DNA of 64,000 nt from Wenyingzhuangia marina. Its GTDB lineage: Bacteria; Bacteroidota; Bacteroidia; Flavobacteriales; Flavobacteriaceae. How positions within the stretch are numbered: position 1 is the stretch's first letter; the number at the start of each line of letters is the position of its first letter. The stretch covers positions 62,001 to 126,000 of the forward strand of contig NZ_FQXQ01000003.1 in the NCBI RefSeq assembly GCF_900130035.1. The letters run 5' to 3'. Of the stretch, positions 6,794 to 47,656 are shown in pieces. The notes under the pieces are model-generated. The model was given only the letters and a program-made list of their open reading frames with translations. It was not told where the DNA came from and did no database searches. Both the position numbers and the translations under genes were made by a program.

Positions 6794-6825
6794 AATTATT
6801 AATAAAACGACAAAATATAACAATT

Positions 6826-9897: not shown

Positions 9898-9914
9898 CTA
9901 ATAACTACAAGATT

Positions 9915-17896: not shown

Positions 17897-18841
17897 TTAC
17901 ACAAAAACAGTAAAGTAAATAAAGGCAGTATATACAGATAGTAAAACAATTCCTTCTTTAAGCCCAAATTTTAATTTGGTGGGAATAAAACACAATGGAA
18001 AAACCAATAAAGCTACTGCAAGCATCCAGTATATATCGTTGGTTACAATATTCAAATCCCCCACTTTTATAGGGGTAATCATAGAAGTAATTCCTAATAC
18101 AGCCAAAATATTAAAAATATTAGATCCTATTAAGTTTCCTAAAGAAATGGCTTTTTCTTTTTTAATGATGGCAATAATAGAAGCGGCAAGTTCTGGAATA
18201 CTGGTTCCTATAGACACAATGGTTACGCCAATAATACGTTCACTAATTCCTATGGCTTCAGCAAAACCAACAGCTCCTTTTATTAATAATTCCGAACCAC
18301 CCCATAATCCAAGACCACCAATGAATAATAAAAACAAGGTTTTTGTTAATGGAGTTTCATCGCTTTGTATGTTTAACTCCTCATCGGTAATGGTTTTTTT
18401 GCTTTGTAAGCGAAGTAAGTAATATAGAAATGCAACAAGCAACACAAATAAGATAACTCCTTCAGTTCTATCTAAAACCAAATCATAACTAATAAATAAG
18501 TAAAGTAGCACAGAAGAAACCATCATCATAGGCCAGTCAATGGTGTAAAAAGATTTTCCTACATCAATGGTTCCTAAACATACTGTAACTCCTAAAACCA
18601 ATGCTAAATTAGCTATGTTAGATCCGATTACATTCCCTAGTGCTAAATCAGGAAACCCATCTAAAGCCGATTTAATACTTACAATAAGTTCAGGTGCAGA
18701 GGTTGCAAATGAAACCACTGTCATTCCTATAACTATCTTAGAAATATTTAATTTTAAGGAGATGTTTACAGAAGCTTTTAAAAGCCAGTCACCACCAAAA
18801 ATTAATAGCACCAAACCGATAACAATGTAAAGTATGTTCAT
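17897..18841 (-). CDS. Calcium/sodium antiporter (YrbG-type CaCA family)
   Basis: Inner membrane cation exchanger, 314 aa, about ten transmembrane segments. The two inverted alpha repeats are visible: SFATSAPELIVSI with GNVIGSNIANLALVLG (residues about 45-85) and SIGTSIPELAASI with GNLIGSNIFNILAVLG (about 205-250), which supply the acidic ion-binding residues in this family. Family members swap Na+ (sometimes with K+) for Ca2+. Monocistronic on the minus strand, divergent from a small conserved ORF 42 bp away. Confidence 0.92.
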   Translation of the reverse strand: MNILYIVIGLVLLIFGGDWLLKASVNISLKLNISKIVIGMTVVSFATSAPELIVSIKSALDGFPDLALGNVIGSNIANLALVLGVTVCLGTIDVGKSFYTIDWPMMMVSSVLLYLFISYDLVLDRTEGVILFVLLVAFLYYLLRLQSKKTITDEELNIQSDETPLTKTLFLLFIGGLGLWGGSELLIKGAVGFAEAIGISERIIGVTIVSIGTSIPELAASIIAIIKKEKAISLGNLIGSNIFNILAVLGITSMITPIKVGDLNIVTNDIYWMLAVALLVFPLCFIPTKLKFGLKEGIVLLSVYTAFIYFTVFV

Positions 18842-18883
18842 TTTTTATTAATTTAGTGCGAATATACTTTTAATTTGTATGCT

Positions 18884-19033
18884 ATGAAAAAAACAATCTT
18901 TAGATCTTTAGCTAAATGCAACAAGTTATTATTGCCTTCATATGGACGTAAACAATTGGATATTAGCAGGGCATCTAAATTGCAATTAATGTTAATAGGA
19001 TGGAGGTGCTATGTTACTAAAAATTCTCTATAA
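18884..19033 (+). CDS. Small conserved basic protein (49 aa)
   Basis: Short ORF encoding 49 residues, MKKTIFRSLAKCNKLLLPSY at the start and LIGWRCYVTKNSL at the end. Strongly basic, with a hydrophobic central helix (KLQLMLIGW), no signal peptide. From memory, similar proteins of about 50 aa beginning MKK and ending in GWR.YVTKN are widespread in Flavobacteriaceae, sometimes mislabelled as SsrA-binding protein; function unknown. It lies 57 nt before the tRNA-Arg gene and divergent to the exchanger. Codon bias and conserved ending support a real gene. Confidence 0.7.
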   Translation: MKKTIFRSLAKCNKLLLPSYGRKQLDISRASKLQLMLIGWRCYVTKNSL

Positions 19034-19048
19034 AAAGTTTATATTTAT

Positions 19049-19079
19049 TTTGCGACATTGTAATAAAGCTCTATATTTG
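19049..19079 (+). promoter_or_regulatory. tRNA-Arg promoter
   Basis: TTTG at 19049-19052, exactly 19 nt, then TATATTTG at 19072-19079: a full match to the Bacteroidota housekeeping promoter (TTTG / TAnnTTTG). The tRNA 5' end is 12 nt downstream, giving a very short leader. Confidence 0.85.
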
Positions 19080-19090
19080 CATCCGCAATC

Positions 19091-19164
19091 GGCTCCGTAG
19101 CATAACTGAATAGTGCACTTGATTACGGCTCAAGAGGTTGGAGGTTTGAATCCTCCCGGAGTCA
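19091..19164 (+). tRNA. tRNA-Arg (anticodon ACG)
   Basis: 74-nt cloverleaf: acceptor GGCTCCG / CGGAGTC (one G-U), D stem GCAT / GTGC, anticodon stem CTTGA / TCAAG around loop TTACGGC with anticodon ACG, variable AGGTT, T stem GGAGG / CCTCC, discriminator A. CCA is not encoded. The T loop is TTTGAAT (U56 in place of C56) and the D loop has GA in place of G18 G19, so the 19-56 tertiary pair appears to be A-U. It would read CGN codons after A34-to-I editing by TadA. Confidence 0.95.
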
Positions 19165-19168
19165 CAAC

Positions 19169-19204
19169 AAAAACTCATTATATTAATTTATGATGAGTTT
19201 TTTT
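19169..19204 (+). terminator. Terminator after tRNA-Arg
   Basis: Ten-bp arms at 19169-19178 and 19193-19202 (AAAAACTCAT / ATGAGTTTTT), 14-nt loop, then further T residues, starting 5 nt after the tRNA. Confidence 0.85.
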
Positions 19205-19249
19205 ATGTGCTATATAGTTAGAGATGTTTAAGAGTATATTTTCTAAAAT

Positions 19250-19281
19250 AAAAAAGGAAGCTATTTATAGCTTCCTTTTTT
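19250..19281. terminator. Bidirectional terminator, end of prmA-clpS operon
   Basis: Perfect 14-bp arms at 19250-19263 and 19268-19281 (core GGAAGCTA / TAGCTTCC flanked by A6 and T6) with a 4-nt loop. It sits directly after the stop of the minus strand gene at 19283 and can also stop leftover + strand transcription from the tRNA side. Confidence 0.9.
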
Positions 19282-19282
19282 A

Positions 19283-19555
19283 TTAATTATAATCTAAATA
19301 TTGTTGTACCACTTTTCGATGATCGTTGTCATCTAGTTTAAAATCTTCAATCAAGGTATTTAATCCGTTAGGTTTTTGTTTTCCAATATTTTCTTTGGCA
19401 TCGTAGCTTGTAAAATGAATATTATAAACATTCTCTTTTTTTTCTAACACAAGATATAAATCGTCTTTAATCCATGAATAGGCTATGGTATCAAAAAATG
19501 AAGAAAGGTCTTTGCTAAATTCTGAAAAATTGTAGTAATCTAAAAATTGTTCCAT
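19283..19555 (-). CDS. Hypothetical protein, clpS operon
   Basis: 90 aa, acidic, no signal peptide or membrane segment. I do not recognise a family. Visible features are the N-terminal aromatic stretch FLDYYNFSEFSKDLSSFF, a beta-like middle (LYLVLEKKENVYNIHFTSYD) and an acidic C-terminal helix ending in QQYLDYN. It begins one nucleotide after the clpS stop, so it is translated with clpS and probably shares its control. A role linked to protein turnover is possible but only by position. Confidence 0.65.
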   Translation of the reverse strand: MEQFLDYYNFSEFSKDLSSFFDTIAYSWIKDDLYLVLEKKENVYNIHFTSYDAKENIGKQKPNGLNTLIEDFKLDDNDHRKVVQQYLDYN

Positions 19556-19556
19556 A

Positions 19557-19832
19557 TTAATGTATTTCAGCAGATAAGCCTAATTCTAACAATTTAGAAC
19601 ATTTAGGTTTTAATTCTTCGTAACTTCCTGTTTTAACAGCACATTTTCCTTTGTAATGAACCAACATAGTGCATTGTTCAGCCTGAATTGGATCGTGTTC
19701 ACAAACATCTATCAAGGCATCAATCACAAAATCAAATGAGTTTACATCATCGTTATACAAAACAATTTCATATTCCTTGATTAATTGTTCAAGGACATCT
19801 ATACTTTCTAAGGTTTTTTCTATTGTGTTCAT
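19557..19832 (-). CDS. clpS: ClpS, N-end rule adaptor of the Clp protease
   Basis: Cytosolic adaptor that binds proteins with a destabilising N-terminal residue and hands them to ClpA/ClpC-ClpP. 91 aa, the usual family length. The ClpS core is clear: YEIVLYNDDVNSFDFVIDAL (residues about 21-40; the NDD segment forms part of the N-degron pocket), followed by AEQCTMLVHYKGKCAVKTGSY containing the conserved H..G.....G. Lies 20 nt downstream of prmA and 1 nt before a small unknown gene, forming a three-gene minus strand operon. Confidence 0.93.
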   Translation of the reverse strand: MNTIEKTLESIDVLEQLIKEYEIVLYNDDVNSFDFVIDALIDVCEHDPIQAEQCTMLVHYKGKCAVKTGSYEELKPKCSKLLELGLSAEIH

Positions 19833-19852
19833 AATCAGTGCAAAATTAAGAA

Positions 19853-20680
19853 TTATTTATCTAATTGTAAACCAACCCAGTTGTTTTTAGTATAAGTTTT
19901 TTGAATAGTTAATCCTAAGTCTTTGGTTCTTTCTTCAAGAAAAGGAATGTCTTGTGTGTAAAACCCACTTAGCAGCAATTTACCTCCGTTGTTTAAACAC
20001 TTATTATAAGTTTCCATATCATTCAACAAAATGTTTCTGTTGATGTTGGCAATAATCACATCGTATTTTTGATCCACCAACATAGAGGCATCTCCTTGGT
20101 AGGCACTAATATGTTTACAGTTGTTTTTCTCAACATTTTCTTCAGTATTGATAAAACACCATTCATCAATATCAATAGCATCAATAGGATGCGCTCCTTT
20201 CATTTCAGCAAAAATGGCTAAAATTCCAGTTCCAGTTCCCATGTCTAAAACACTCTTATTTGTTAGATCTAATTCTAACAAATGTTTAATCATTAAATGA
20301 GTAGTTTCATGATGACCGGTACCAAAACTCATTTTAGGTTCTATCACAATTTCATACTCCATTCCTGTTTTTTCGTGAAAAGGAGCAATTACACTTACTT
20401 TGTTATCAACATGAATAGGTTCAAAATTCTTTTCCCATTCCAAATTCCAGTTTACTTGTTCAATTTCTTGATAAGTATAGGAAATGTCAAACTCTTCAGA
20501 TTGTAATGCAAAAACATCATCTAAAATATCTTCATTCCAATCTTGTGTTTGTATATAAGCTTCTAACCCTGTGTTTGTTTCTTCAAAACTTTCAAAACCT
20601 AATTCACCCAATTCTGCAATTAAAATTTCAGTAGCGGGTTGTAGTGGTGTAATAGTAAAAGTGTAACCTGTGTAATTCAT
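19853..20680 (-). CDS. prmA: Ribosomal protein L11 methyltransferase
   Basis: SAM-dependent enzyme that trimethylates ribosomal protein L11 on lysines and the N-terminus. 275 aa. N-terminal substrate-recognition domain (about 1-105), then a class I methyltransferase fold: PKMSFGTGHHETT (conserved PrmA loop), DMGTGTGILAIFAEMKGA (motif I, SAM binding), IDAIDIDEW (motif II region) and DVIIANINRNILL (catalytic N-I-N-R motif). First gene of the prmA-clpS operon. In related genomes the tpiA gene normally lies close upstream; here the Gabija island separates them. Confidence 0.93.
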   Translation of the reverse strand: MNYTGYTFTITPLQPATEILIAELGELGFESFEETNTGLEAYIQTQDWNEDILDDVFALQSEEFDISYTYQEIEQVNWNLEWEKNFEPIHVDNKVSVIAPFHEKTGMEYEIVIEPKMSFGTGHHETTHLMIKHLLELDLTNKSVLDMGTGTGILAIFAEMKGAHPIDAIDIDEWCFINTEENVEKNNCKHISAYQGDASMLVDQKYDVIIANINRNILLNDMETYNKCLNNGGKLLLSGFYTQDIPFLEERTKDLGLTIQKTYTKNNWVGLQLDK

Positions 20681-20702
20681 TTTTATGTGATATTTCTGGG
20701 TA

Positions 20703-20710
20703 CAAAAATA
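20703..20710 (-). promoter_or_regulatory. Candidate prmA -7 element
   Basis: TATTTTTG on the minus strand matches TAnnTTTG exactly, 23 nt before the prmA start. It overlaps the outer arm and T run of the relic tpiA hairpin (20707-20736), so in the ancestral arrangement terminator and promoter would have been interleaved. No clear -33. Confidence 0.4.
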
Positions 20711-20736
20711 GCTAAAAGCAAAAGCTTTTAGCTATT
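20707..20736 (-). terminator. Relic terminator of the ancestral tpiA tail
   Basis: Perfect 13-bp hairpin (arms 20707-20719 and 20724-20736, loop AAAA) followed on the minus strand by a short T run. It lies 23 nt after the relic tpiA stop codon, the same arrangement as the terminator after the intact tpiA gene. Confidence 0.75.
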
Positions 20737-20794
20737 AAAGAATATATTTTGTTGTTTTCTTAGATGGCTTTCACCACAGCAGCAAAATAAACAG
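20711..20794. repeat. Left direct repeat (tpiA tail plus terminator), diverged
   Basis: 84 nt that align in the same orientation with 24976-25059. Matching blocks: 19 of 22 nt over the GCTAAAAGCAAA hairpin part, an 8-nt TTGTTTTC, and 29 of 35 nt over the tpiA C-terminal codons including an identical 14-nt CACAGCAGCAAAAT. The middle has small length differences. Homology stops at 20794. Confidence 0.85.
20760..20786 (-). pseudogene. tpiA: Relic 3' end of tpiA
   Basis: On the minus strand this reads FAAVVKAI and a stop, against FAAVIKAI and a stop for the intact tpiA at 25025. The differences are mostly third-position or conservative, so it is a diverged homologous tail rather than chance. Upstream of it the frame no longer resembles triose-phosphate isomerase. 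Interpreted as the original gene end displaced by insertion of the Gabija island. Confidence 0.8.
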
Positions 20795-20868
20795 TAAATA
20801 AATTAATAAAGAACTATATTGTATAACAAAAAAGTATCTGATAGTTTATTCTATTAGACTTAAATAAG

Positions 20869-22944
20869 ATGTCTATGAAAATTAATAAAATCAAAATTGA
20901 AAACTTTAGACTTTTAAAACAGTTTTCAATTGATTTAGAGGATAAGCTTTCTTTAGTAATTGGTAAAAATAATACAGGTAAAACATCTTTGTTATCTGTT
21001 ATTGAAAAATTTTTAACTGAAAAAAGTAAATTTTCTATAAACGACTTTAATCTAGATGAACAGAAGAGGTTAAAGGATTTAGAGCAAAATAATTCTATTG
21101 AGATCCCCGAAGATTTTATCTTTAGAATTAAACTTCAATTTGAAATCCTGTATGATGATTTAGATAGTTTAAAAAATTTATCAGCACTAATTCTTAATCT
21201 AGAATCAGAAAATGTTGTGGTATTAGGGTTTGAGTATATTTTAAATCCTTTACAGTTTAAATACCTAAAAGCAGATTTTGAAATTTATAAAAAAGAAAAT
21301 TCTAAAAAGAATATTATAGCTTTTCTTAATCTACCAAAAAGCATCAAATATTTTAAAATAGAAGTTAGAGCTCATGAATACTTAAATGAAAATGAATTAG
21401 GTAAGTCTAAAATAATAACGGATAAAAAACTAATATCCAGAATACTTAATATTCAAAGTATTAAAGCGAAAAGAGAAGTTAATAATTCTGATTCAAATAA
21501 GACAGATAAAACGCTTTCTAAGTTATCATCAGATTATTATGAAAGTCTAGAAAATACATTTGAAGAGGAAGATGTTATAAAAGAATTAAATAAAAAGTTA
21601 GAGCATACAGATGAAGAGCTTGATAAAGTATATCCAACGGTTTTTAAGGAAGTTATAGATAAAGTTCAGCTTTTTGGCGGAATGAATGAAGGAGAATCTT
21701 TAATAAAGGTTGTTTCGAGCTTACAAGGAAAAAATATATTAAAAGAGAATACATCTGTTGTGTATGAATATGCTAAAACGTTTCTTCCAGAAGATTATAA
21801 TGGTTTGGGCTATTTAAATCTTTTTTCTATAATTTTTGATTTGGAAATTCGATTTAGAGAGTTTCGTAAAGAACGAGAACTTAAAGATGACCAAATACCT
21901 GCTGATATAAATATTCTATTTATAGAAGAACCAGAAGCACATACGCACCCACAAATGCAGCATGTATTTATAAAAAAAATAACAGAGATTTTAGATAAAG
22001 AAAAACGGGGATTAGATATTAATGGTAATCTGGATGGTAAAAAGACTAAATTCAATTTACAGAGTATTGTAACTACGCATTCTTCACATATCGTAGCTGA
22101 AAGTGATTTTGATGATATAAAGTATTTCCACAAGAAAAGTAATAAAGTTGATTCTAAAAACCTAAAAGATTTACAGGCTAATTATGATATTAATACAAGT
22201 CAATATCAATTTTTAAAACAATATTTAACTTTAAATAGGGCTGAATTGTTTTTTGCAGATAAAGCTATCTTGATAGAAGGTGATACGGAGCGGATTTTAC
22301 TACCAGCAATGATGAGTAAGTTAGATATAGAGAATCAATTTGATTTACCATTATTGTCTCAGAATATTTCAATTATAGAAGTCGGAGCTTATGCTCATAT
22401 ATTTGAAGAATTTATTGCTTTTATAGGTGTTAAGTTTCTTTTAATTACTGATATTGATACATTTAAGTTGGTACTTACTGGTGAGAAAAACAAAGATGGT
22501 AAAGATAAAACTAAAGAGGAACCTTGTTCTCCTGTTGATGTAGATGTTGCAGGAATAAGTAATGCCTCATTAAACCATTTTACAAAAAAAGATTTTAAAG
22601 AATTAATTAGTTCTACCAAAAATATTATAATAAAAGAGAATAATTTATGTGTTGCTTTTCAGCATAAAGAAGAAGACTATCATGCAAGGAGTTTTGAGGA
22701 TTCTTTTATTCATGTTAATGAGAAATTTCTCAAAAAGAATAAAGATAATTGCAAAGGATTAAAAAATAAAAAAGATTTTGATTTAGTAGGAGAAGATAAA
22801 AAAATAGCATATGAACTTGCTGAAAAATGTATTATTAAGAAAACTCATTTTGCTTTGGATATTGTTTATCACAGTGATAATAAATATAGTAATTGGAATA
22901 TTCCATCATATATAAAAGAAGGATTACTATGGCTTCAGAAGTAG
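20869..22944 (+). CDS. gajA: GajA-like OLD-family ATPase/TOPRIM endonuclease
   Basis: Nuclease subunit of a Gabija-type antiphage system. 691 aa, longer than the roughly 580 aa described for the Bacillus protein. ATPase: Walker A GKNNTGKTS (32-40), ABC-like signature region NGLGYLNLFS (311-320), Walker B ILFIEEPEAHTHP (349-361), His switch TTHSSH (402-407). TOPRIM: ADKAILIEGDTER with Glu470, and LITDIDT with Asp528 and Asp530, the metal ligands of this nuclease fold. Class 2 OLD proteins are defined by a neighbouring UvrD-like helicase, present here with a 16-nt overlap. An inserted variable part lies between residues 205 and 260. Family function (DNA cleavage released when nucleotide pools fall) is known; phage specificity is not. 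Confidence 0.82.
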   Translation: MSMKINKIKIENFRLLKQFSIDLEDKLSLVIGKNNTGKTSLLSVIEKFLTEKSKFSINDFNLDEQKRLKDLEQNNSIEIPEDFIFRIKLQFEILYDDLDSLKNLSALILNLESENVVVLGFEYILNPLQFKYLKADFEIYKKENSKKNIIAFLNLPKSIKYFKIEVRAHEYLNENELGKSKIITDKKLISRILNIQSIKAKREVNNSDSNKTDKTLSKLSSDYYESLENTFEEEDVIKELNKKLEHTDEELDKVYPTVFKEVIDKVQLFGGMNEGESLIKVVSSLQGKNILKENTSVVYEYAKTFLPEDYNGLGYLNLFSIIFDLEIRFREFRKERELKDDQIPADINILFIEEPEAHTHPQMQHVFIKKITEILDKEKRGLDINGNLDGKKTKFNLQSIVTTHSSHIVAESDFDDIKYFHKKSNKVDSKNLKDLQANYDINTSQYQFLKQYLTLNRAELFFADKAILIEGDTERILLPAMMSKLDIENQFDLPLLSQNISIIEVGAYAHIFEEFIAFIGVKFLLITDIDTFKLVLTGEKNKDGKDKTKEEPCSPVDVDVAGISNASLNHFTKKDFKELISSTKNIIIKENNLCVAFQHKEEDYHARSFEDSFIHVNEKFLKKNKDNCKGLKNKKDFDLVGEDKKIAYELAEKCIIKKTHFALDIVYHSDNKYSNWNIPSYIKEGLLWLQK

Positions 22945-24944
22945 ACAAGATTATAGAAACGATGGAAGAAGGAAACCACTTTTTACTATGTGGTGGTGCT
23001 GGTAGTGGAAAAACGCATACTTTAATAGAGCTTATTCAACGAATAAATGAGGAGAATCCAAAAGCAAAAATAGCATGTATAACATACACAAATGTTGCTG
23101 CCGATGAAATTTCTGAAAGAGCAAATTCATTTTCTTTAAAAGCAAGTACAATTCATGATTTTCTTTGGGATAATATAAAAGCTTTTCAAGCAAATTTAAG
23201 AAAAGGAATTATTGAGTTAAATACTAACATAGCAGAAGAGGACTTATTAGACGATGTTGAAATTCAATATAGAGAATATGTTAGCTTAAAAAAAGGTGTT
23301 ATTTCACATAGTGATGTTATAAAGTTAACAAAATACATTTTTGAGAAACACCCATTATTATCAAAAATAATAAGTGATAAATTTGATTATATTTTTGTAG
23401 ATGAATATCAGGATACTTCTCAAGAAGTGATAGATATTTTATTTAAGCATCTTAATTCAAAATTTTTTGATTTAAGAATAGGCCTTTTTGGAGATAGTAT
23501 GCAGTCAATTTATGATGGAGTTGGAGAAATAGAAACCGATACTATAACTAATGAAGATTCTAAAAGAAATCTTATAGAAATTACAAAGGTATTAAATAGA
23601 AGAAATCCTCAGTCTATAATTGATTTAGCTAATAAATTAAGAAATGATGAGTTAAAACAAAAACCTTCAATATATAAAAGAGCTCCTAATGTTAATGAGG
23701 ATGGAACAATAAAAAAAGGGGAGCTTACTTTTCTTTATTCATCATCAACACTTAAAAATATTGATGATGTTAAAAAAAGTAAATATTGTTCTAACTGGGA
23801 TTATAAAAATTATGATGATAAAGGAAAACCTTTTTCTAAAATTCTTTTAATAAAAAATGGATTAATAGCTGAAAAAGCAGGGTTTAATTCTCTCTTTGAA
23901 GTTTATACAAAAGATAAAATAGTAGGAGCAGGTTATATAAAACGTATTAAAGACTTTTTAAAAGAATCTAAAAAAGATTACGATATAGAATCTATTACAT
24001 TTTTAAAACTTTTAGATAAGCTAACTAAAGAATTCAATAAAGAGTTAAACTTTAATAAAGCTATCGATTTAATTAAAGACGAGGAACTAAATTATTGTAC
24101 AATTCAAAAAGCTATTAATTCGGTAAAAAAGTTATATCCAGGAATTGAAAAAATTCTTCCAACAGGTTCTATGTACACTTACATTATTGCTAATAAAGAT
24201 TTATTTAATATTGCTCTTTCAATGCAGTTTAGTGATTTACTAAATATACATTTAAATAAAGATAAACTTGTAGGGAAAAAGAAAAGTAAAAATTCAGACT
24301 CTAATATTAGAAATGATGAGAAAGATATTTTGATTAAATATCTATTCAAAATTCAAGAAATTATAACTTTCTATGAGAATAGAAACATTAATGAATTATT
24401 AAAAAAAGTTGATTATAAAATTGAATTAGGAAAGCATAAGTCTACTTTAAAAGATAAAATGGAGATGTTATGCTCTATGACTAATCTAAAAATCAAAGAT
24501 GTTATAAATTTTGCTGATTCATCGGGACTTTTAAAAATAGATTCAAAAGTTTCTGAATTTATGAGTTCAAAAGCTTACTTGATAGAAAGAATTAATAATG
24601 TCAATTTTTCTGAGATTACTAATCTTTATAATTATATTGAAGGATTGACTCCTTATTCTACTCAACATGGGGTTAAAGGAGATGAATTTGATAATGTATT
24701 AGTAGTTGTAAATAAAGATAAAACTCCGCAGATATCTGTTTGTTATGAATCTCTTTTTGAAAATAAAATAGTTGAAGATAAATATTTTAATAGAACTTTA
24801 AATTTGTTTTATGTTGCTTGTACTAGAGCTAAAGAAAGCTTAGTAGTATTTTATGAAGGAGAATGTTCAACTAAAGTTTTAAGTAAAGCTAAGGAATGGT
24901 TTGGTGATGAAAATGTTATTGATTTAGATAATGGATTAATTTAA
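22929..24944 (+). CDS. gajB: GajB-like UvrD/Rep superfamily helicase
   Basis: Helicase partner of GajA. 671 aa from Met at 22929, which follows an AAGGA ribosome-binding site inside the gajA 3' end; an upstream in-frame ATG at 22893 is less likely. Superfamily 1 motifs are complete: I GGAGSGKTHT (22-31), Ia ITYTNVAADE, II FVDEYQDT (156-163), III GLFGDSMQSIYDG, IV LNRRNPQSI, V TQHGVKGDEFDNV, VI YVACTRAKESL near the C-terminus. Longer than the roughly 500-aa Bacillus GajB owing to a Lys/Asn-rich stretch of about 300 residues between motifs IV and V. Known role: senses DNA ends or gaps and activates GajA. Confidence 0.82.
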   Translation: MASEVDKIIETMEEGNHFLLCGGAGSGKTHTLIELIQRINEENPKAKIACITYTNVAADEISERANSFSLKASTIHDFLWDNIKAFQANLRKGIIELNTNIAEEDLLDDVEIQYREYVSLKKGVISHSDVIKLTKYIFEKHPLLSKIISDKFDYIFVDEYQDTSQEVIDILFKHLNSKFFDLRIGLFGDSMQSIYDGVGEIETDTITNEDSKRNLIEITKVLNRRNPQSIIDLANKLRNDELKQKPSIYKRAPNVNEDGTIKKGELTFLYSSSTLKNIDDVKKSKYCSNWDYKNYDDKGKPFSKILLIKNGLIAEKAGFNSLFEVYTKDKIVGAGYIKRIKDFLKESKKDYDIESITFLKLLDKLTKEFNKELNFNKAIDLIKDEELNYCTIQKAINSVKKLYPGIEKILPTGSMYTYIIANKDLFNIALSMQFSDLLNIHLNKDKLVGKKKSKNSDSNIRNDEKDILIKYLFKIQEIITFYENRNINELLKKVDYKIELGKHKSTLKDKMEMLCSMTNLKIKDVINFADSSGLLKIDSKVSEFMSSKAYLIERINNVNFSEITNLYNYIEGLTPYSTQHGVKGDEFDNVLVVVNKDKTPQISVCYESLFENKIVEDKYFNRTLNLFYVACTRAKESLVVFYEGECSTKVLSKAKEWFGDENVIDLDNGLI

Positions 24945-24967
24945 TAATGAGCTAGCTATTAAAAAAC

Positions 24968-25005
24968 AAAACCCCGCTAAAAGCAAATGCTCTCAGCGGG
25001 GTTTT
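24968..25005. terminator. Bidirectional terminator, gajB / tpiA
   Basis: Arms 24968-24978 and 24995-25005 (AAAACCCCGCT / AGCGGGGTTTT, 11 bp), with a small inner stem in the loop. On the minus strand the stem is followed by a T-rich run and serves tpiA; on the + strand it serves gajB. Confidence 0.9.
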
Positions 25006-25059
25006 ATATATTATTGTTTTCTTCTTAGATTGCCTTGATCACAGCAGCAAAATCAGCAG
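24976..25059. repeat. Right direct repeat (intact tpiA tail plus terminator)
   Basis: Partner of 20711-20794. Contains the last codons of the intact tpiA (25025-25059) and the inner part of its terminator. Compared with the left copy it has an extra TTC before the stop codon and an added GC-rich outer stem in the hairpin. Confidence 0.85.
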
Positions 25060-25783
25060 CTACCAAGGAAGCTCCACCAATTAAACCACCATCAACATCT
25101 GGCTTAGAGAAAATTTCTTCAGCGTTAGATGGTTTACAAGAACCTCCATATAGAATAGATACGTTTTCAGCAACTTCAGCTCCATATTTATCAGCAACAA
25201 ATCCACGGATAAAAGCATGCATTTCTTGTGCTTGCTCTGCAGAAGCAGTTAATCCTGTTCCAATTGCCCAAACTGGTTCGTAAGCCAATACAATGTTGGA
25301 CCATGCAGCAGCATCTAAATGAAATAAAGCTCCAGAAATTTGTTCTGCAACTACTTTTTCTTGAATGTTAGCTTCTCTTTCTTCTTTAACTTCACCAAAA
25401 CAGTAAATTACTTCTAAACCGTTTGCCAAAGCAGCATCAGTCTTTTTAGCTAATAATGCTTCGTCTTCACCAAAGTATTCTCTTCTTTCAGAGTGTCCTA
25501 AGATTACAGATTTAATTCCAACGCTAGTTAACATATCTGCAGAAATTTCTCCTGTATATGCTCCGCTAGCCTCTTGGTGCATGTTTTGAGCAGCAACTTC
25601 TACAGCAGAACCTTCAGTAGCTGCTAATACAGTAGTTAAGTTTACAAATGTAGGTGAAACAATAACTCTTGTGTTGTCTAAAGAAACACCATTTAATTCG
25701 CTTACTAATCCTTCTGCTAAAGCTTTAGACTCGGCAACGTTTTTGTTCATTTTCCAGTTACCTGCTACAATTTTACTTCTCAT
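25025..25783 (-). CDS. tpiA: Triose-phosphate isomerase
   Basis: Cytosolic glycolytic enzyme interconverting dihydroxyacetone phosphate and glyceraldehyde 3-phosphate. 252 aa, normal length. Catalytic elements: NWKMNK with Lys12, ILGHSERREYF with the electrophilic His96, AYEPVWAIGTG with the catalytic Glu, and the phosphate-binding YGGS and GGLIGGAS loops. 11 nt downstream of the TlpA-like gene, so likely co-transcribed with it and the permease. Its last codons form one of the repeats flanking the Gabija island and may be foreign in origin. Confidence 0.97.
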   Translation of the reverse strand: MRSKIVAGNWKMNKNVAESKALAEGLVSELNGVSLDNTRVIVSPTFVNLTTVLAATEGSAVEVAAQNMHQEASGAYTGEISADMLTSVGIKSVILGHSERREYFGEDEALLAKKTDAALANGLEVIYCFGEVKEEREANIQEKVVAEQISGALFHLDAAAWSNIVLAYEPVWAIGTGLTASAEQAQEMHAFIRGFVADKYGAEVAENVSILYGGSCKPSNAEEIFSKPDVDGGLIGGASLVAADFAAVIKAI

Positions 25784-25794
25784 TTTATATAAAT

Positions 25795-26283
25795 TTAGTT
25801 TTCTAATACGTTTGTTATTCTAGAATCATCTGCCTCAATAGCTCTGTAAATAAGGACTTTTCCAGTTTCATCAATTACAATGTATCTTGGAATCCAATCA
25901 AGGTCTATGTTTTTAGCAAAAATACTCTTCCATCCGCCTTCTACATAGTAATGATCTCCTTTTATACTAAAACGATTGATACCCTTTTTCCAATCGGTTT
26001 GATTCTTGTCCAAAGATATAAATACATAGTTAGCATTTGGGTGTTTTTCTTGAAGTTTTTTAAGTTTTGGAAGTCCTTTGATACAGTCGCTACACCAAGA
26101 TGCCCAAACTTCTATAACCGTAATTTTTCCTTGTTGGTTATCTATTAATTGTTGAAAAGTAAGATCATCACCAGACAATGAAACCATTGGAGCAGCTAAT
26201 ACTTCTTTACTAAATGCTGTTTTTTCTTGTGCTTTACAGGCAAAGAATAAAAAGCTAACTAAAATTAAGGTAATTTTTTTCAT
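25795..26283 (-). CDS. TlpA-like thioredoxin-fold lipoprotein
   Basis: Periplasmic thiol-disulfide protein, 162 aa. Lipoprotein signal with Cys16 (LFFAC) right after the hydrophobic stretch. Thioredoxin fold with redox motif WASWCSDCIKGLPKLK (CSDC, residues about 70-73) and the cis-Pro region DWIPRYIVID. Related proteins reduce disulfides during cytochrome maturation or envelope repair; the partner is unknown. Lies 7 nt after the permease gene and 11 nt before tpiA. Confidence 0.88.
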   Translation of the reverse strand: MKKITLILVSFLFFACKAQEKTAFSKEVLAAPMVSLSGDDLTFQQLIDNQQGKITVIEVWASWCSDCIKGLPKLKKLQEKHPNANYVFISLDKNQTDWKKGINRFSIKGDHYYVEGGWKSIFAKNIDLDWIPRYIVIDETGKVLIYRAIEADDSRITNVLEN

Positions 26284-26290
26284 GATATTT

Positions 26291-27361
26291 TTATTTTAAT
26301 TCAACACTTGGGTCTAAAATGCTGTAAGAAATATCTACCAAAATATTTAGGAGGATAAAAAATGCAGCAATGGTTAATATACTTCCTGAGATTACAGGTA
26401 AGTCGGAAGAATTTAGAGCGTTTACAATTTCTTTTCCTAAACCGTTCCAGTTAAAAATATATTCTACAAAAACCGCACCAGCTAATAAAGAAGCAAACCA
26501 ACCTGATAGAGTTGTAATAACAGGATTTAAAGCGTTTTTTAAAGCGTGCTTTTTGATAATAACATACGTAGACAATCCTTTTGATTTTGCAGTTCTAATA
26601 TAATCTTTACTTAAAATATCCAATAAACTATTTCTAGTCAACTGAACAATGACTGCTAAGGGTCTTATTCCTAAAACAATACTTGGTAAAATGGCATTTT
26701 TCCAAACAATTTTGGTTCCTTCACCAAAGTCATCAACTTCCACAATATTACCTGTCATCCCTAAACCAGTGTATTTGTGTAATACAAATCCGAACAACCA
26801 AGCAAATAAAATGGCAGAGAAAAAAGAAGGTAAACTCATTCCCAAAGTACTAATGACCATAATACATTTGTCTAAAAAAGTATTGACTTGCAATGCAGAT
26901 ACAATACCTAATAACAAACCAATTATAAAAGCAATACTAATGGCTGTTACCGCTAATAATAAAGTGTTTGGTAATGTTTCCACTAAAATGCTACTCACTT
27001 CTTTATCATTTTTTTGAAAAGAATTTCTAAGATTTGGAAACTTTAAAACTCCCACAAAATCATTGGTACTTAAGAAGGTAATTCTAGATTTATTCTTAGG
27101 TAAAAAAGAATAATCATTTTGATGAGTACTGTGGAAAGATATAGGAGACAAATCATTTAAATAATTAAAGTACTGTGTGTGTAAAGGTAAATTTAAACCG
27201 TACTTAATTTTAATGTTTTCTAATTGTTCCTGATCTTCTCTTTGATCTAATAACATTCTAGAAGGATCTCCCAATAAATTGAACAAAAAGAAAAGTAGCG
27301 TGGCCACTCCAAATAAGCTGATGAATCCTTTAAAGATGTTTTTAATTAAAAATGAAATCAA
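26291..27361 (-). CDS. Peptide/nickel-type ABC transporter permease (DppB/OppB-like)
   Basis: Inner membrane permease, 356 aa, about six transmembrane helices. N-terminal LFNLLGDPSRMLLDQ and IKIKYGLNLPLHTQY are typical of DppB/OppB; the binding-protein-dependent EAA-like loop is RTAKSKGLSTYVIIKKHALKNALNPVI. A soluble insert of about 70 residues follows the first helix (NYLNDLSPISF to FPNLRNSFQ). No ATPase, second permease or binding-protein gene is nearby, so its partners must be elsewhere. First gene of a permease-tlpA-tpiA run. Confidence 0.9.
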   Translation of the reverse strand: MISFLIKNIFKGFISLFGVATLLFFLFNLLGDPSRMLLDQREDQEQLENIKIKYGLNLPLHTQYFNYLNDLSPISFHSTHQNDYSFLPKNKSRITFLSTNDFVGVLKFPNLRNSFQKNDKEVSSILVETLPNTLLLAVTAISIAFIIGLLLGIVSALQVNTFLDKCIMVISTLGMSLPSFFSAILFAWLFGFVLHKYTGLGMTGNIVEVDDFGEGTKIVWKNAILPSIVLGIRPLAVIVQLTRNSLLDILSKDYIRTAKSKGLSTYVIIKKHALKNALNPVITTLSGWFASLLAGAVFVEYIFNWNGLGKEIVNALNSSDLPVISGSILTIAAFFILLNILVDISYSILDPSVELK

Positions 27362-27380
27362 TGTAATATTGTTTTAATTT

Positions 27381-27388
27381 CAAAGATA
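27381..27388 (-). promoter_or_regulatory. Candidate -7 element of the permease-tlpA-tpiA operon
   Basis: TATCTTTG on the minus strand, an exact TAnnTTTG, 19 nt before the permease start. The -33 region has TTG triplets but none at the ideal distance. Confidence 0.45.
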
Positions 27389-27474
27389 TCATTTACAACA
27401 ATTATATGCATGTGATGTGTTTAAAAGATTTTAAATATTTAAATTGCTGTCAATAATTAAAAAAGAACTTATCA

Positions 27475-28491
27475 ATGTCAAAAATCATCAAAACAGGATT
27501 GTTATCTTTTGGACTTTCAGGAAAAGTTTTTCATGCACCTTTTGTAAATGAGCATATAGGATTTGAACTAACAGCTGTGGTAGAAAGAAGTAAAAAAACA
27601 ATCAAAGAGGTCTATCCTGATGTAATTAGTTACGATAGTGTTGATGAGATTTTAGCAGATAATAATCTAGATTTAATTATTGTAAATACGCCCAACAATA
27701 CTCATTACGATTTTGCTGTAAAAGCTTTACAAGCAAAAAAACATGTGTTGATGGAAAAGCCATTTGCCATCACTTCAAAAGAAGCAAAAGAATTATATAA
27801 AGTAGCTGCTGAAAATGATTGTAAAATATTAGCATATCATAACAGGAGATACGACAGTGATTACCTTTCTGTAAAAAAAGTATTGGAATCTGGTGATTTA
27901 GGAAATGTGGTAGAAGCACATATTAGATTTGATAGATACAAAACAGAAATAGGACCAAAAGCTGTTAAAGAAACTGCAGAAGTTCCTGGAAGTGGAATTA
28001 CTTATGATTTAGGTTCTCACATTGTTGATGCTGCGATTTCCTTATTTGGACTTCCTGTGAGTTGGCATAAAAAGAAAGGATATTATAGAGAAAATACTCA
28101 AGTAGATGATTTTATGTGTGCTTATATTGAGTTTCCTAACAATATTCATGTTCATGTAACAACAAGCCTGTTAGTACCTAATCCACAATCGTCTTTTGTA
28201 ATACATGGAACCAAAGGAACATATGTAAAACAAAGAATTAATTTACAAGAAGAGCAATTGATGACTGGTATGCAAATTACTGATGCTAATTATGGAGTAG
28301 AGCCTAAAGGAATAGAAGGGGAATTAACCATTGCTTTAAATGCAACAGAAAGAAAAACCATTAAAATTCCTGCTGAACCTGCTACTTATATGCATATTTT
28401 TGAAGCCGTTTATCAAACCATTATCAATGGAAAAGAATATCCAATTACCGAAGCACAGATTGTTAAACAACTAGAAATTTTAGAAGCATAA
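27475..28491 (+). CDS. Gfo/Idh/MocA-family oxidoreductase
   Basis: NAD(P)-dependent dehydrogenase acting on a sugar or cyclitol-like substrate, 338 aa, cytosolic. Rossmann N-terminus with TGLLSFGLSGKVFHAPF (residues about 7-23), TPNNTHYDFA and the conserved KHVLMEKPFAIT (EKP motif with catalytic Lys, about 88-99). C-terminal alpha/beta domain with GSGITYDLGSHIVDAA carrying the family His. Converges on the transglutaminase gene with no intervening bases. Substrate not predictable. Confidence 0.93.
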   Translation: MSKIIKTGLLSFGLSGKVFHAPFVNEHIGFELTAVVERSKKTIKEVYPDVISYDSVDEILADNNLDLIIVNTPNNTHYDFAVKALQAKKHVLMEKPFAITSKEAKELYKVAAENDCKILAYHNRRYDSDYLSVKKVLESGDLGNVVEAHIRFDRYKTEIGPKAVKETAEVPGSGITYDLGSHIVDAAISLFGLPVSWHKKKGYYRENTQVDDFMCAYIEFPNNIHVHVTTSLLVPNPQSSFVIHGTKGTYVKQRINLQEEQLMTGMQITDANYGVEPKGIEGELTIALNATERKTIKIPAEPATYMHIFEAVYQTIINGKEYPITEAQIVKQLEILEA

Positions 28492-29445
28492 TTATTGCTG
28501 TTGTTGTTGCTGTTGAGAGCTTGATCCCGGAATTTTTATTTGAGTTTGTTGATAACCACCATCAGGTCTAATATCAACAGATACTCGTAAAGTACTTTTT
28601 CCACTGCTGTATAACACTCCTTTTAATGGGGCAACATCATAATAATCTCTTCCCCAAGCGACCACAATGTGTTGGTTTTTTGGAATTTGATTATTGGTAG
28701 GATCAAAATCTAACCAACCAAAAGTGGGTATGTAAACCGAAAACCATGCATGGGAAGCATCGGTTCCAATTAATTTTTCTTTCCCCGGAGGAGGTAAAGT
28801 TTCTATGTAGCCACTTACATATTTGGCGGGAAGTTTTACAGAACGCAAACAAGCAATGGCAATTTGTGCAAAATCCTGACAAACCCCTTTTTTCTCTTTC
28901 ATTACTTCGCTAATGGGGGTAGCTACGTTAGAAAAAGTAGTGTTGAATTCAAAATCTTTAAAAATACGTTGCATCAGTTCGTAACTCGCTTCATATACAG
29001 ATCTGTCGGGTTTAAAAGAAACTTCAGCATAGGCTTTTATTTTCTCATCAATATTTTTAATCAATACAGATTCTAATTGAAATTGTCTGGCTTCTAAAAT
29101 TTCATCACTTACTCCTTTTAAAAGTTCTAAAGATTCAGATAAAGTAATGTTTTTAGCCGCTTCAAAATCATCAATAGAAGGACAAAGAAGGATATTTCTA
29201 TCAACTTTGCTAATGGCAGAAACTTTTAATTGCTTGTGATGTTCTTGAATAGAAAAACGAGTAATGGTATTGCCAAAAAAATCAACTCTTTCAGAAAATT
29301 CTACAGGTTTTGGACTGATTTGTAAATCATAAGAAATTAATCTTTGTCCTAAAATATTCTTAGGTTTTAAAATAGCCATGTTATGACAAAAGGTAACTCC
29401 TTCTTCATAATCATATTGAGTTGTATGGATGACTTTATAAACCAT
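28492..29445 (-). CDS. Transglutaminase-like protein with poly-Gln tail
   Basis: Cytosolic transglutaminase/peptidase-fold protein, 317 aa. N-terminal bacterial transglutaminase-associated domain (1-85), then the papain-like core with a full triad: Cys189 (KGVCQDFA), His232 (DASHAWFSV) and Asp248 (WLDFDPT). The C-terminus ends in seven glutamines coded by a short CAG/CAA-type tract. Stop overlaps nothing but abuts the convergent oxidoreductase stop. Shares one base with the ATP-grasp gene upstream. In this conserved gene set the enzyme is thought to act on a peptide made by the partner ligases. Confidence 0.9.
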   Translation of the reverse strand: MVYKVIHTTQYDYEEGVTFCHNMAILKPKNILGQRLISYDLQISPKPVEFSERVDFFGNTITRFSIQEHHKQLKVSAISKVDRNILLCPSIDDFEAAKNITLSESLELLKGVSDEILEARQFQLESVLIKNIDEKIKAYAEVSFKPDRSVYEASYELMQRIFKDFEFNTTFSNVATPISEVMKEKKGVCQDFAQIAIACLRSVKLPAKYVSGYIETLPPPGKEKLIGTDASHAWFSVYIPTFGWLDFDPTNNQIPKNQHIVVAWGRDYYDVAPLKGVLYSSGKSTLRVSVDIRPDGGYQQTQIKIPGSSSQQQQQQQ

Positions 29446-32000
29446 TATATCACAATTTTTTGTTTAACCATTTGTGTTTGTTGATAGGTATGATCAAAGT
29501 ATGTATTGGAAATAGATAAAGAAGTTTCGTGTAGCAAATCACTTAATTCAGATAATAAATCTTCTAAGTTATTTCTTAATGTTTTGTCTTCGTTTAAATT
29601 CAATAAAGTGATTGAATCAACATTTTTAATAAGTTTATTGGCCACTCTAATAGTTTCTAAAGATTTAGAAAAACCTAAAGTTCCTTTTGGAATAGGTAAT
29701 CTTTCTATGTCTTTTTCTATTCTTTTTAACTGATATGACAGCGATTTTGGATATTCTTTGTCTAATAATACCAAGTTTACCACATTGTCTATACTTAAAT
29801 AAGAACGATAACTATATCTGTAAATATTTAAACTTTCGTGGCTAGATAACAACGATTCTAATATTTCGTAGTTTAATTGTTCTTCATAATTAAACACAAT
29901 TAAAGATCTACATTTGGCAATATTCATAGTGGCTTGCTCCATTTGTAGACCAATAAAATAAAGTAGTAAACCTTGGTTTACCAAAATACTTTCTTCTATT
30001 AATCCCATAAAAGCAATTAATCTTGTTACGGTTCTATCTAATAATTTTGTTAAAGAAGCAATAGAAGGTTGTTCATCAGCATTGTAGTTTCTCCATAATT
30101 TTTTAATACTATCAAAAACTCGCCACATGTCTTTAGACCAAAGATTTCTTAAACTATAATAAGAATTGTTAAAACTATTTAAAGTTTGAGCCAAACTACC
30201 TATTCTATTTTCATCTAAAATTAAAGATTGAATTTCTTTTAAAGGATTCTCTAATGTTTTTTCTGAACCTTCCCCAACAAAACCGGGAAAAGTAGAGGTG
30301 ATGTTTGTAATGGCTTTGTACAAATAATTTAATATTTCCGACTCTGATTTTCTAGAGTTGTACTGCTCATTATTCATGTTATTCAATACCATTCTAATAA
30401 ATCTAGAAGTTACCAAAGCTCTTCCTAAATACCTACCAGACCAAAATAAGTTTTCGGCTGTATTACTAGGTAAATCATTAATATCTGACACAGAAATGTT
30501 TTGAGAACTATTCCATGTGTATTGTTGAATATTGGTTTGTAGTTCATTACTAATAACCCAAAAATCTTTACTAACACCACCACGTTGGTTAGAAACGCGT
30601 AATTCTTTTCTTTCTGAAGCCACACGCACCAAACCACCTGGCATTACTGTATAACCGTTTCCTTTGGCAATGCTAAACGTTCTACAAACTATTTTTCTAG
30701 GTTCTAATTTTCCGTTGATGTAGGTAGGGGCTGAAGAAAATGATATTTTTTCTTGAGCCACAAATCGGCAAGGATTTTTTAGAATTTCTTTTTTTAGTAC
30801 TTCAATTTCTACTTCTGATAAAAACTCGCAAAAGAATAAACTTTCTCTGTTAGATCTATCAATTCTTTTAACAACAAAATTTTTGATGTTTTTAAGTACA
30901 AAATTTAATTCCTTTTCTTGTCCACACCACCATGAGGCAATTTGCGGAAGGATTAAATCTTCTTTAAAAAAGTAGTTACAAATAGCGTTCATAAAAGGAA
31001 CCAAACCAGAGTTCTCTATCACACCACTTCCTACAGGGTTTACAACAGTAATGTTTTGATTTCTTACAACTTCTAACAATCCTGCAATTCCTAAATAAGA
31101 ATCTTCTCTTAATTCTAGCGGATCTACAAAAACATCATCCACACGTCTTAAAATAACATCAACTTTTTTTAGTCCGTCCAAAGATTTCATCCAAACAAAA
31201 CCATTACGAACAATCAAATCATTCCCTTTTACCAAAGGATAACCTAACAAAGATGATAAATAAGCGTGCTCAAAATAAGTTTCGTTATGCGGTCCAGGAG
31301 TTAAAATAACAATGTTCGGATTTTCAACATCTTTAGGAGCCGCATCAATCAACATTTGATTGAAGTCGTTAAAAAAAGCAGAAGGCTGTTTTACATTGAT
31401 ATTGTTGTATAATTCCGAGGCAATTCTACTGGTGGTAAAACGATTTTCCAAAGCATAACCCATTCCAGATGGGGCTTGAGTTCTATCATTCACTACCCAC
31501 ATTCTACCATCGGGACCCCTAGAAATTTCTGCAGAATAAATCATTAAAGATTTTGCAGTGGTATATTTTATTTGATCACAATGTCTTAAAAAACCTCTGT
31601 GCTCATAAATAACTTCTGGAGGGAGAATTTTGTTTTTAATTAACTTTCTTTCTCCGTAAATATCTTTTAAAATTAAATCTAAAAGTTCAGCTCTTTGTTT
31701 AATTCCTCTTTCTACTTCTTTCCACTCATCTTCATTAATCACAAAAGGAATAATGTTTAAGTTCCAAGGTCTGTTTAAACCATTAGGATCGTTGTAAACA
31801 TTATAAGTTACCCCGTTCTCAGCCATTAACCAATCAATTTCACTTTGAAGGCTTTTTAGTTTTTCATCACCAATAGTGCTGATGTTTTCCAATAATGTGT
31901 TCCAATTTTGATTGATTTCTTTATTGGGTTTTAAAACTTCATCATAATTCTTAATATCAGATAAGTAATCTTTAAAAAGTTTATTTGAATCAATAGTCAT
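29445..32000 (-). CDS. Circularly permuted ATP-grasp ligase fused to alpha-E domain
   Basis: Predicted peptide-forming ligase, 851 aa, soluble. Residues about 60-480 carry the circularly permuted ATP-grasp (RDDVDD-like ILRRVDDVFVDPLELR, NPVGSGVIEN, RFVAQEKISFSSAPTYINGKLEPRK divided over strands, PGGLVRVA). Residues about 510-840 form the all-helical alpha-E domain (NLFWSGRYLGRALVTSRFIR at its start). Such fusions occur in operons with transglutaminases and DUF2126 proteins and were proposed by comparative genomics to build a small peptide or peptide tag. 10 nt downstream of the DUF2126 gene. Confidence 0.88.
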   Translation of the reverse strand: MTIDSNKLFKDYLSDIKNYDEVLKPNKEINQNWNTLLENISTIGDEKLKSLQSEIDWLMAENGVTYNVYNDPNGLNRPWNLNIIPFVINEDEWKEVERGIKQRAELLDLILKDIYGERKLIKNKILPPEVIYEHRGFLRHCDQIKYTTAKSLMIYSAEISRGPDGRMWVVNDRTQAPSGMGYALENRFTTSRIASELYNNINVKQPSAFFNDFNQMLIDAAPKDVENPNIVILTPGPHNETYFEHAYLSSLLGYPLVKGNDLIVRNGFVWMKSLDGLKKVDVILRRVDDVFVDPLELREDSYLGIAGLLEVVRNQNITVVNPVGSGVIENSGLVPFMNAICNYFFKEDLILPQIASWWCGQEKELNFVLKNIKNFVVKRIDRSNRESLFFCEFLSEVEIEVLKKEILKNPCRFVAQEKISFSSAPTYINGKLEPRKIVCRTFSIAKGNGYTVMPGGLVRVASERKELRVSNQRGGVSKDFWVISNELQTNIQQYTWNSSQNISVSDINDLPSNTAENLFWSGRYLGRALVTSRFIRMVLNNMNNEQYNSRKSESEILNYLYKAITNITSTFPGFVGEGSEKTLENPLKEIQSLILDENRIGSLAQTLNSFNNSYYSLRNLWSKDMWRVFDSIKKLWRNYNADEQPSIASLTKLLDRTVTRLIAFMGLIEESILVNQGLLLYFIGLQMEQATMNIAKCRSLIVFNYEEQLNYEILESLLSSHESLNIYRYSYRSYLSIDNVVNLVLLDKEYPKSLSYQLKRIEKDIERLPIPKGTLGFSKSLETIRVANKLIKNVDSITLLNLNEDKTLRNNLEDLLSELSDLLHETSLSISNTYFDHTYQQTQMVKQKIVI

Positions 32001-32010
32001 TTAGGGTACT

Positions 32011-35000
32011 CTATTTTTTACGCAAATCTAAGGTATTTGGGAATTCTTTATCGACTGGAATGGTTTTATATCTGAATTTTTTTGAACTACCTAACTCTTC
32101 CACAGTTCTTTTAGGAGCTTCTGTCTCACTTTGGGTAATCTCTTCAATATTATCAACATATGTTTGTGTTTCTCCAATATCCCAAAAACGGTTAATTCTT
32201 CTAGATTCTGCTTCAAAACTATTCACAGGGAAGGTTTCGTATGATCTACCACCTGGATGAGCAACAAAATATTTGCACCCTCCAATAGATTTTCTACTCC
32301 AAGTATCTACAATATCAAATGCTAGGGGAGTGTCTACTCCAATAGTTGGATGTAAAGCAGAATATGGATCCCATGCTTTGTATCTAATTCCAGCTACAAA
32401 TTCACCTTTTACAGCTGTAGGTTGCATTTGTACTTTTACGCCATTACAAGTCAATACATATCTTTCATTAACAAAGTTTGATACTTTTACTTGCAAACGC
32501 TCTAAAGAAGAATCTACATAACGGGCTGTTCCGCCACCAGTCATTTCTTCCCCTAATACATTCCAAGGTTCAATACCTGCTCTAAGTTCTAAATGAATAT
32601 TGTTGATGTCTACCATTCCATGTAAAGGAAATCTGAATTCAAAGAAAGGATCAAACCAATCTAACTCAAATTTGTATCCAGCTTTGTTTAATTGGGTAAC
32701 AATATCTTTAATGTCTTCTCTAACAAAATGTTCTATTAGGAATTTATCGTGTAATTCTGTTCCCCATCTAACCAAATCGTGTTCGTATGGTTTTTTCCAG
32801 AACCAAGCTACTAAGGTTCTAACCAATAGCATTTGTAACAAACTCATTTGAGGATGAGGAGGCATGTCAAAACCACGAAGTTCTAATATTCCTAATCGAC
32901 CAGAAGAGGAGTCTGGAGAATATAATTTATCAATACAAAACTCTGCTCTGTGTGTGTTACCTGTTAAATCGGTTAATAAATGTCTAAATAACCTATCGGT
33001 TAACCAAAAAGGAACTTCTCCATCTTTGGGAATTTGACTAAAGGCAATTTCTAACTCGTATAAGTTTTCCATTCTGGCCTCATCAATTCTTGGTGCTTGA
33101 CTGGTAGCTCCCACAAAGGCTCCAGAAAATAAATAAGACAATCCTGGGTGATGTTGCCAAAAAGTAAGCAAGCTTCTTAATAAACTAGGTTTTCTTAATA
33201 AAGGACTGTCCGCAGGAGTGGTTCCTCCTAAAGTTACATGATTTCCTCCACCAGTTCCTGTATGTTTTCCATCAAGCATAAACTTCTCTGTTCCCAAACG
33301 AGCTTTTTTTGCTTCCCCATACAAAGTCATGGTATTGTTAACCAATTCTTCCCAATTTTTCATTGGGTGCACGTTGACTTCTATTACTCCCGGATCTGGA
33401 GTGATTTTCATAGATTCTACTCTATTGTCATGTGGTGGATTATATCCTTCTAAAATAACAGGAATGTTAAGTTCTTTAGCAGTGGCTTCTATAGAAGCAA
33501 TTAAATCAAGAAAAGCATCAGCACTATCTAAAGGTGGTAAGAATAAGTACAATTTACCATATCTAACTTCGGAACAAATTGCAGTTCTAACAAAATATTT
33601 AGGTTTGTTAGTGTCTATTCCGTTGATACAAAAATCTTTATATCTGGTGTTTACCAATCTTTTAAAACTAGGTAAAGGTTTACGTTCTTTAAATAAATCT
33701 GGTTCGTAAACAGGAAAAATTTCGTATTCAGGTTTGGTGATTAAAGAGCTTAAAGGTAATCTTAACCCAATAGGAGAAGTTCCAGGGGTTAAGTGTAAAT
33801 TTTTACGTCTAAAAACCCATTCGCTTGTAAACCATTGGTCTTTATGTTTGTTTAATGGCAATACATAACCAACTGCTTTATTGGTTCCTTGTGCTAAAAT
33901 TTCTGCAAGTCTTTTTCTGATTAAATCTTCGCTGTTTGGTTTGCTAATATCAATATCAACAGGAATGTTTCCTTCTTCCCAGAGCATGTAAAAAGCATCT
34001 TCATAAGTAGGAATAATGTGTTGATGAGAAACGTTTAAATATTTGGTTAAGGTTTTTAAAAACTTAAGATCACTTCCTTCTGGAACTATAGGATTTGGTG
34101 AAAAACAAGAAAGTAATTCTGGAGTATGCCAAATGGGTTTTCCATCTTTTCTCCAATACAACTGAATTTCCCATCTAGGTAAAGGTTCTCCAGGATACCA
34201 TTTTCCTTGCGCATGATGTAGCATTCCGCCTACACCAATTTTATCCATTAACCTTTTGGTTAAATCGTTGGCTAATTTTCTTTTGTGGGATCCATCAGCA
34301 TCGGTATTCCATTCGGGAGATTCCATATCATCAATAGAAACAAAGGTAGGTTCTCCACCCATGGTTAATCTAACATCTCCTTTTTGTAAATCTTTTTCAA
34401 CTTTATATCCAAGTTTTTCAATGGCTTTCCATTGTTCTTCGGTATAAGGTTTGGTAACTCTTGGCGATTCTAAAATTCTAGTGACTGAATTTTCAAATTC
34501 AAATTCGGTATTAATTTCTTTATCACTTAAAATTCCTCCACTAACTGCAGCAGCACTTTCATAATGTGGTGTACAAGATAAAGGAATATGTCCCTCACCG
34601 GCTAACAAACCAGAAGTGGAGTCAAAACCAATCCAACCTGCACCAGGAATATAAACTTCTGTCCATGCATGTAAATCTGTAAAATCTTCTTCAGGTCCGG
34701 AAGGTCCATCTAATGATTTTTCATCAGATTTTAATTGCACAATATATCCAGAGACAAATCTGGCTCCAAATCCTAAATGTCTCATAACTTGTACAAATAA
34801 CCAAGAGTAGTCTCTACAAGATCCAGTTCCACATTTTAAGGTTTCCTCAGCGGTCTGCACTCCAGGTTCTAATCGTATGTTATATTTTAAAAACTCATAT
34901 ATTTTTCGGTTGATATCAATTAAAAAATAAATGGTTTTTCTAGGCGTGTAATCAATGGTTTTTAAAAACTCTTGTAGTAAATCACTATCCTCATTTATTT

Positions 35001-47647: not shown

Positions 47648-47656
47648 GAAATTTTT

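Follow-up and report, generated by a model that had tools for sequence, protein, structure and literature searches.

How does a pair of defence genes without an integrase of its own come to lie between two core genes, with the end of one of them repeated on either side? The question is raised by a locus in the 3.24-Mb genome of Wenyingzhuangia marina, within a stretch of 64,000 nt (positions 62,001 to 126,000 of contig NZ_FQXQ01000003.1) that we call the window and by which all coordinates are numbered. A Gabija pair occupies positions 20869-24944 there, between tpiA and prmA.

The Gabija pair and its flanking repeat

The first gene, gajA (20869..22944, plus strand), encodes an ATPase with an OLD-like TOPRIM nuclease and matched PADLOC GajA at 6.3e-232 as well as Pfam AAA_15 and OLD-like_TOPRIM, and it adjoins gajB (22932..24944, plus strand), a UvrD-like helicase gene that matched PADLOC GajB at 5.3e-174 and Pfam UvrD-helicase. 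These are near full-length profile matches in the usual order of the system, GajA then GajB, so that the preliminary description of a two-gene Gabija cassette holds. Nothing unusual was seen in the proteins, and a comparison with PDB sequences gave no more than distant matches to OLD and PcrA/UvrD. The nicking of DNA by GajA, with GajB assisting, is how Gabija works elsewhere and presumably here, and membership of this family suggests an anti-phage function. The GC content of gajA and gajB is 25-26%, compared with 30.5% for the window. On the left lies prmA, the gene for ribosomal protein L11 methyltransferase (19853..20680, minus strand; Pfam PrmA 1.4e-47), and on the right an intact working copy of tpiA (25025..25783, minus strand; Pfam TIM 6e-92, 95% amino acid identity to W. 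gilva).

The pair is bracketed by an imperfect 84-nt repeat (20711-20794 on the left, 24976-25059 on the right; 75% identity, E 3e-9) made up of the last tpiA codons and the tpiA terminator, as had been proposed. No third copy was found in the genome at E 0.001. Chance can be ruled out as the source of the repeat: its local score is 39, compared with a maximum of 20 among as many as 3000 same-size pieces drawn at random from the window (pieces near the two copies being skipped), and the core of the terminator occurs at only two sites in the genome with at most two mismatches, the reversed-pattern control giving none. The restriction of the core to these two places likewise rules out a common genomic terminator motif.

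The coding part of the left copy is a relic of the last tpiA codons (20760..20795, minus strand) that reads TVYFAAVVKAI-stop. It had been given as FAAVVKAI-stop with 29 of 35 nt matching, which is right, and over 36 nt it differs at 7 positions from the working tpiA end, at 7 from W. gilva and at 6 from another congener, G003. Its descent from tpiA, which had been left to wider comparison, is borne out by a coding-tail score of 23, with a null maximum of 13 in 60 shuffles. The working end itself differs from W. gilva at 1 of 36 nt.

Insertion into an empty site

Empty sites had been suggested as the place to look, and the closest relative, W. gilva, has a clean one. Its sequence aligns at 89-90% to window positions 17903-20802 and 24976-32897, the second alignment running to the end of the stretch compared, and 4173 nt of the window lie between the aligned parts. 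In W. gilva the two ranges overlap by 92 nt; there is therefore one tpiA end there and two in the window. A single tail followed by an AT-type terminator is found in W. gilva, W. aestuarii, sp. 2_MG-2023 and Ochrovirga, and the tpiA-prmA interval is 80-83 nt in the latter three; no tpiA was found in the incomplete genome G005. The insertion model had been offered with the caveat that relatives free of the island might carry the duplicated tail as well, and all four of these carry one tail. Close spacing of the two genes is general: of the 77 family loci picked by prmA, the two genes are in line in 73, with a gap below 180 nt in 69 of these.

The left terminator region (20681..20759, minus strand) is identical to W. 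gilva at 75 of the 79 nt next to prmA, and because only 4 of these differ, it is the old native terminator. The pair was thus inserted, and a relic of the original tpiA end was displaced to the far side, beside prmA, as the preliminary description had it. The stub is more diverged from W. gilva than the adjacent terminator (7/36 and 4/79, respectively; Fisher p 0.015). As four-fold sites in tlpA, tpiA and prmA are about 25% different between the window and W. gilva, the divergence of the stub is compatible with neutral drift since about the split from that species, and constraint on the terminator, as part of the prmA promoter, would be a simple reason for the difference between the two parts. 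The stub has a GTG codon, and among seven genomes only the tpiA genes of W. gilva and the window have the same codon.

The second half of the earlier model, in which an incoming element restores tpiA with its own copy and leaves a breakpoint of phylogenetic signal within the gene, fared less well. W. gilva is the closest overall in tpiA (93.9%), followed by G003 (92.9%), and in six of nine 90-nt blocks, including both ends, no congener has fewer differences. Another congener is closer in the other three blocks (5 vs 8, 3 vs 5 and 5 vs 6 differences); over nt 361-630 this advantage is slight, and a patch near 416-500 resembles W. heitensis. No clear breakpoint was seen in this block comparison. 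It is only after the tpiA stop codon that the sequence is unlike W. gilva, where the GC-rich terminator takes over.

Across about 123 kb of matches between the window genome and W. gilva, we counted five insertions on the W. marina side and eight on the W. gilva side, one replacement being entered in both lists. The Gabija pair is the only one of the five with a duplicated target of at least 25 nt, and none of the eight has one. As separate observations on this comparison, collinearity with the W. gilva stretch compared (plus strand, matches above 300 nt) starts only at about 17903, 1.2 kb to the left of a tRNA-Arg (ACG) gene at 19091-19165, no other tRNA having been found in the window, and about 2.7 kb at 46242-48932 has no W. 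gilva match above 300 nt, with a similar length of other sequence in its place.

Terminators, the probable prmA promoter and other cargo

The AT-rich hairpin of the left copy has a folding energy of -17.5 kcal/mol (z -4.4). Inside this native terminator region, upstream of prmA, lies a TATTTTTG box (20703-20710) that is likely to be part of the prmA promoter. The TAnnTTTG pattern is that of the -7 element TANNTTTG/TAHHTTTG described for Flavobacterium in the part of PMC6847099 consulted, and within Wenyingzhuangia it coincides with the T-run of the tpiA terminator. Among relatives, the box precedes prmA in 35 of 55 intervals that are at least 75 nt or of unknown length, a count that leaves out the mis-located row L096, and is absent from 20; the shuffle control for long intervals, run on 56 rows of which 36 have the box, gave 3.9 on average and 9 at most. 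Among short intervals it occurs once in 63, with a shuffle mean of 3.1. These rows come from related genomes and are not independent. No -33 element was found by eye upstream of prmA. The left terminator has probably been kept because the prmA promoter is in it.

The right copy carries a different terminator, a GC-rich hairpin (24960..25024) that forms on either strand (z -8.7 and -6.0) and so suits its position between the convergent gajB and tpiA. It is 89% identical over 65 nt to that of W. heitensis and 79% over 62 nt to that of G003, with scores of 45 and 28, respectively, although in tpiA, prmA and tlpA it is G003 that lies nearer to the window. Both of these congeners have cargo of another kind at the same spot, a gene for a DsbA-like protein of 213-214 amino acids that is convergent to tpiA (Pfam DSBA 4.9e-30 in G003), with an AT-type terminator beside prmA and a GC-type one on the tpiA side. 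At E 0.001 neither the genome of the window nor W. gilva has a match to the DsbA-like gene, and a relative with 67% identity lies elsewhere in G004. The spot therefore has three states, with Gabija in the window, the DsbA-like gene in W. heitensis and G003, and nothing in G002, G004 and G006. The expectation that other cargo would be found between a relic tail and tpiA was borne out as to the cargo but not as to the tail: only the terminator is recognizable in the left copies (score 24 against a null of 14 in W. heitensis, and a marginal 16 against 15 in G003), and no coding tail is detectable in either.

Different cargo at one spot in relatives is what is found at hotspots bounded by core genes, and Oliveira et al. 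2017 (PMC5635113) describe hotspots where no mobile elements are recognizable and recombination occurs at the flanking core genes. The likeness is that cargo turns over between conserved genes, with no mobility genes to be recognized. The present locus differs in that the join is marked by a terminator and by the decaying end of the flanking gene to which it belongs, and whereas recombination there involves the flanking genes, tpiA here shows no clear breakpoint but only the patch near nt 416-500.

Routes of insertion

Homology-assisted exchange of cargo at a small spot between core genes is favoured by the empty site, the single tails with AT-type terminators, the GC-type terminator in common with congeners that have DsbA-like cargo, the W. 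gilva-like end of a tpiA without a clear breakpoint, the extent of divergence of the relic, the box upstream of prmA, the lack of GajA matches in the other genomes of the genus and the lower GC content of the pair than of the window, and this is the reading that we regard as best, with a little better than even confidence. The Gabija pair would have been acquired horizontally and placed between the tpiA stop codon and the native tpiA terminator. DNA from a relative may have brought in the cargo together with the GC-rich terminator of the tpiA side, joining through homology at the tpiA end and, on the prmA side, through short stretches of homology or illegitimately. The old last codons would then have been left to drift as a non-functional stub, and the old terminator kept since prmA would need it. 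On this account the locus looks like the outcome of ordinary gene exchange at a variable spot and not like a new kind of mobile element. Several points speak against it: a crossover confined to the last tpiA codons has a narrow target, the greater divergence of the stub than of the terminator could also mean that the stub came with the element, the middle of tpiA is slightly nearer to another congener than to W. gilva, the right terminator scores higher with W. heitensis than with G003, against the order seen in tpiA, prmA and tlpA, and the joining events are inferred, no donor with Gabija at tpiA having been found. The empty site, the decaying relic and the alternative cargo in sister species make the locus a well-resolved example of entry into a core locus by a defence system of just two genes that brings no integrase of its own, and it suggests how small defence cassettes may settle between core genes while the terminator and promoter of the neighbours are spared.

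Of the alternatives, the one that survives best, although we think it unlikely, is that the terminator duplication was ancestral in the genus, that Gabija replaced a DsbA-like gene, and that W. gilva and W. aestuarii collapsed to one copy. In its favour, the DsbA-like gene of W. heitensis and G003 lies between these two types of terminator, but two clean collapses are needed, and the GTG codon of the stub suggests a younger copy, a single codon being weak evidence. This history can overlap with the favoured exchange, and the degrees of confidence given here are not shares of one whole.

We are more doubtful that the pair is a cis-mobilizable remnant, inserted at the 3′ end of tpiA by a tyrosine recombinase that acted in trans or has since been lost, with the two tails as attL and attR. 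The flanking repeats of the target end are candidate att sites, and integration at a gene end would leave a doubled tail and a displaced native end of the kind seen here. The locus resembles the cis-mobilizable elements, or CIMEs, of PMC5704250, as described in the portion consulted, in having copies of a gene end on either side of an insert without integration genes; it differs in that no ancestor element, recombinase or excision is known for the tpiA site. The insert holds no integrase, as had been noted, and nine matches to the phage-integrase family lie elsewhere in the genome, outside the window. Some of these nine may be housekeeping Xer recombinases. Against this alternative, the repeat has no third match in the genome, and the coding end of the working tpiA looks native. 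Integrase-only defence islands are described for E. coli in the section consulted of PMC10121019.

Related Gabija loci bear on this possibility in both directions. GajA relatives at E 1e-60 were found in 7 of 397 family genomes besides that of the window, one of the loci being cut by a contig end, whereas the other six genomes of the genus have none at E 1e-20. In one locus (L130, positions 5872-11419), related gajB and gajA genes adjoin a tyrosine recombinase gene with an arm-binding domain (52% GajA identity; Pfam Phage_integrase 1.4e-17), so Gabija of such a type can sit beside a tyrosine recombinase. However, no convincing repeat surrounds that integrase-Gabija segment, the best matches being 11-12 nt at E of at least 0.14. 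A gene-end repeat was not recognised around any of the seven loci; four weak matches near them span 26-109 nt at E 0.001-0.04, two of them inverted, compared with 1.8e-11 for the window pair. Among plasmids, 51 records have GajA relatives, all below 60% identity, and a scan of viral contigs with a single protein gave no confirmed relative.

A wider use of tpiA as an integration site was looked for by searching the 397 family genomes for each gene. Among the matches listed, 16 tpiA-prmA intervals above 400 nt were picked by eye and tested for a tail duplicate together with those of five other relatives. One of the 21 has a duplicated coding tail, that of G249, which holds no cargo; there the tpiA end and the sequence after it are freshly duplicated in tandem (L158, about 1515-1987; about 237 nt, 97%). 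Neither a coding-tail nor a downstream duplicate scores above shuffles in the eight intervals of 3-9 kb, none of which matches the one integrase that served as a query, and six ORFs of the G023 interval, compared with Pfam, include no integrase. In this partial survey, a family-wide integration hotspot at tpiA is thus unsupported, and an integrase-driven tpiA element, while possible, finds no support in the relatives examined. A partial literature search found no account of tpiA as such an insertion site; one paper that pairs tpiA with island terms uses it, in the portion seen, as an MLST gene.

The duplication in G249 shows that the tpiA end can be doubled without cargo, but a duplication that came first, with Gabija inserted between the copies later, is improbable here, as it does not account for the GC-rich terminator, which W. 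heitensis also has, and none of the five congeners with the locus has a duplication without cargo. A broader idea, which we rank above that one and below the other two alternatives, is that in Wenyingzhuangia the tpiA terminator may itself be the unit of exchange, cargo being swapped between the two-way terminator on the tpiA side and the native terminator with the prmA promoter. If so, duplicated terminators would be recurrent homology sites for small cassettes that lack an integrase.

As a last observation from the survey, six genomes (L144-L149), among the eight with intervals of 3-9 kb, have a similar small ORF in a tpiA-prmA interval of 5-9 kb. By inspection it appears to encode a response regulator, an assignment that Pfam confirms in G023, the one case compared with it.
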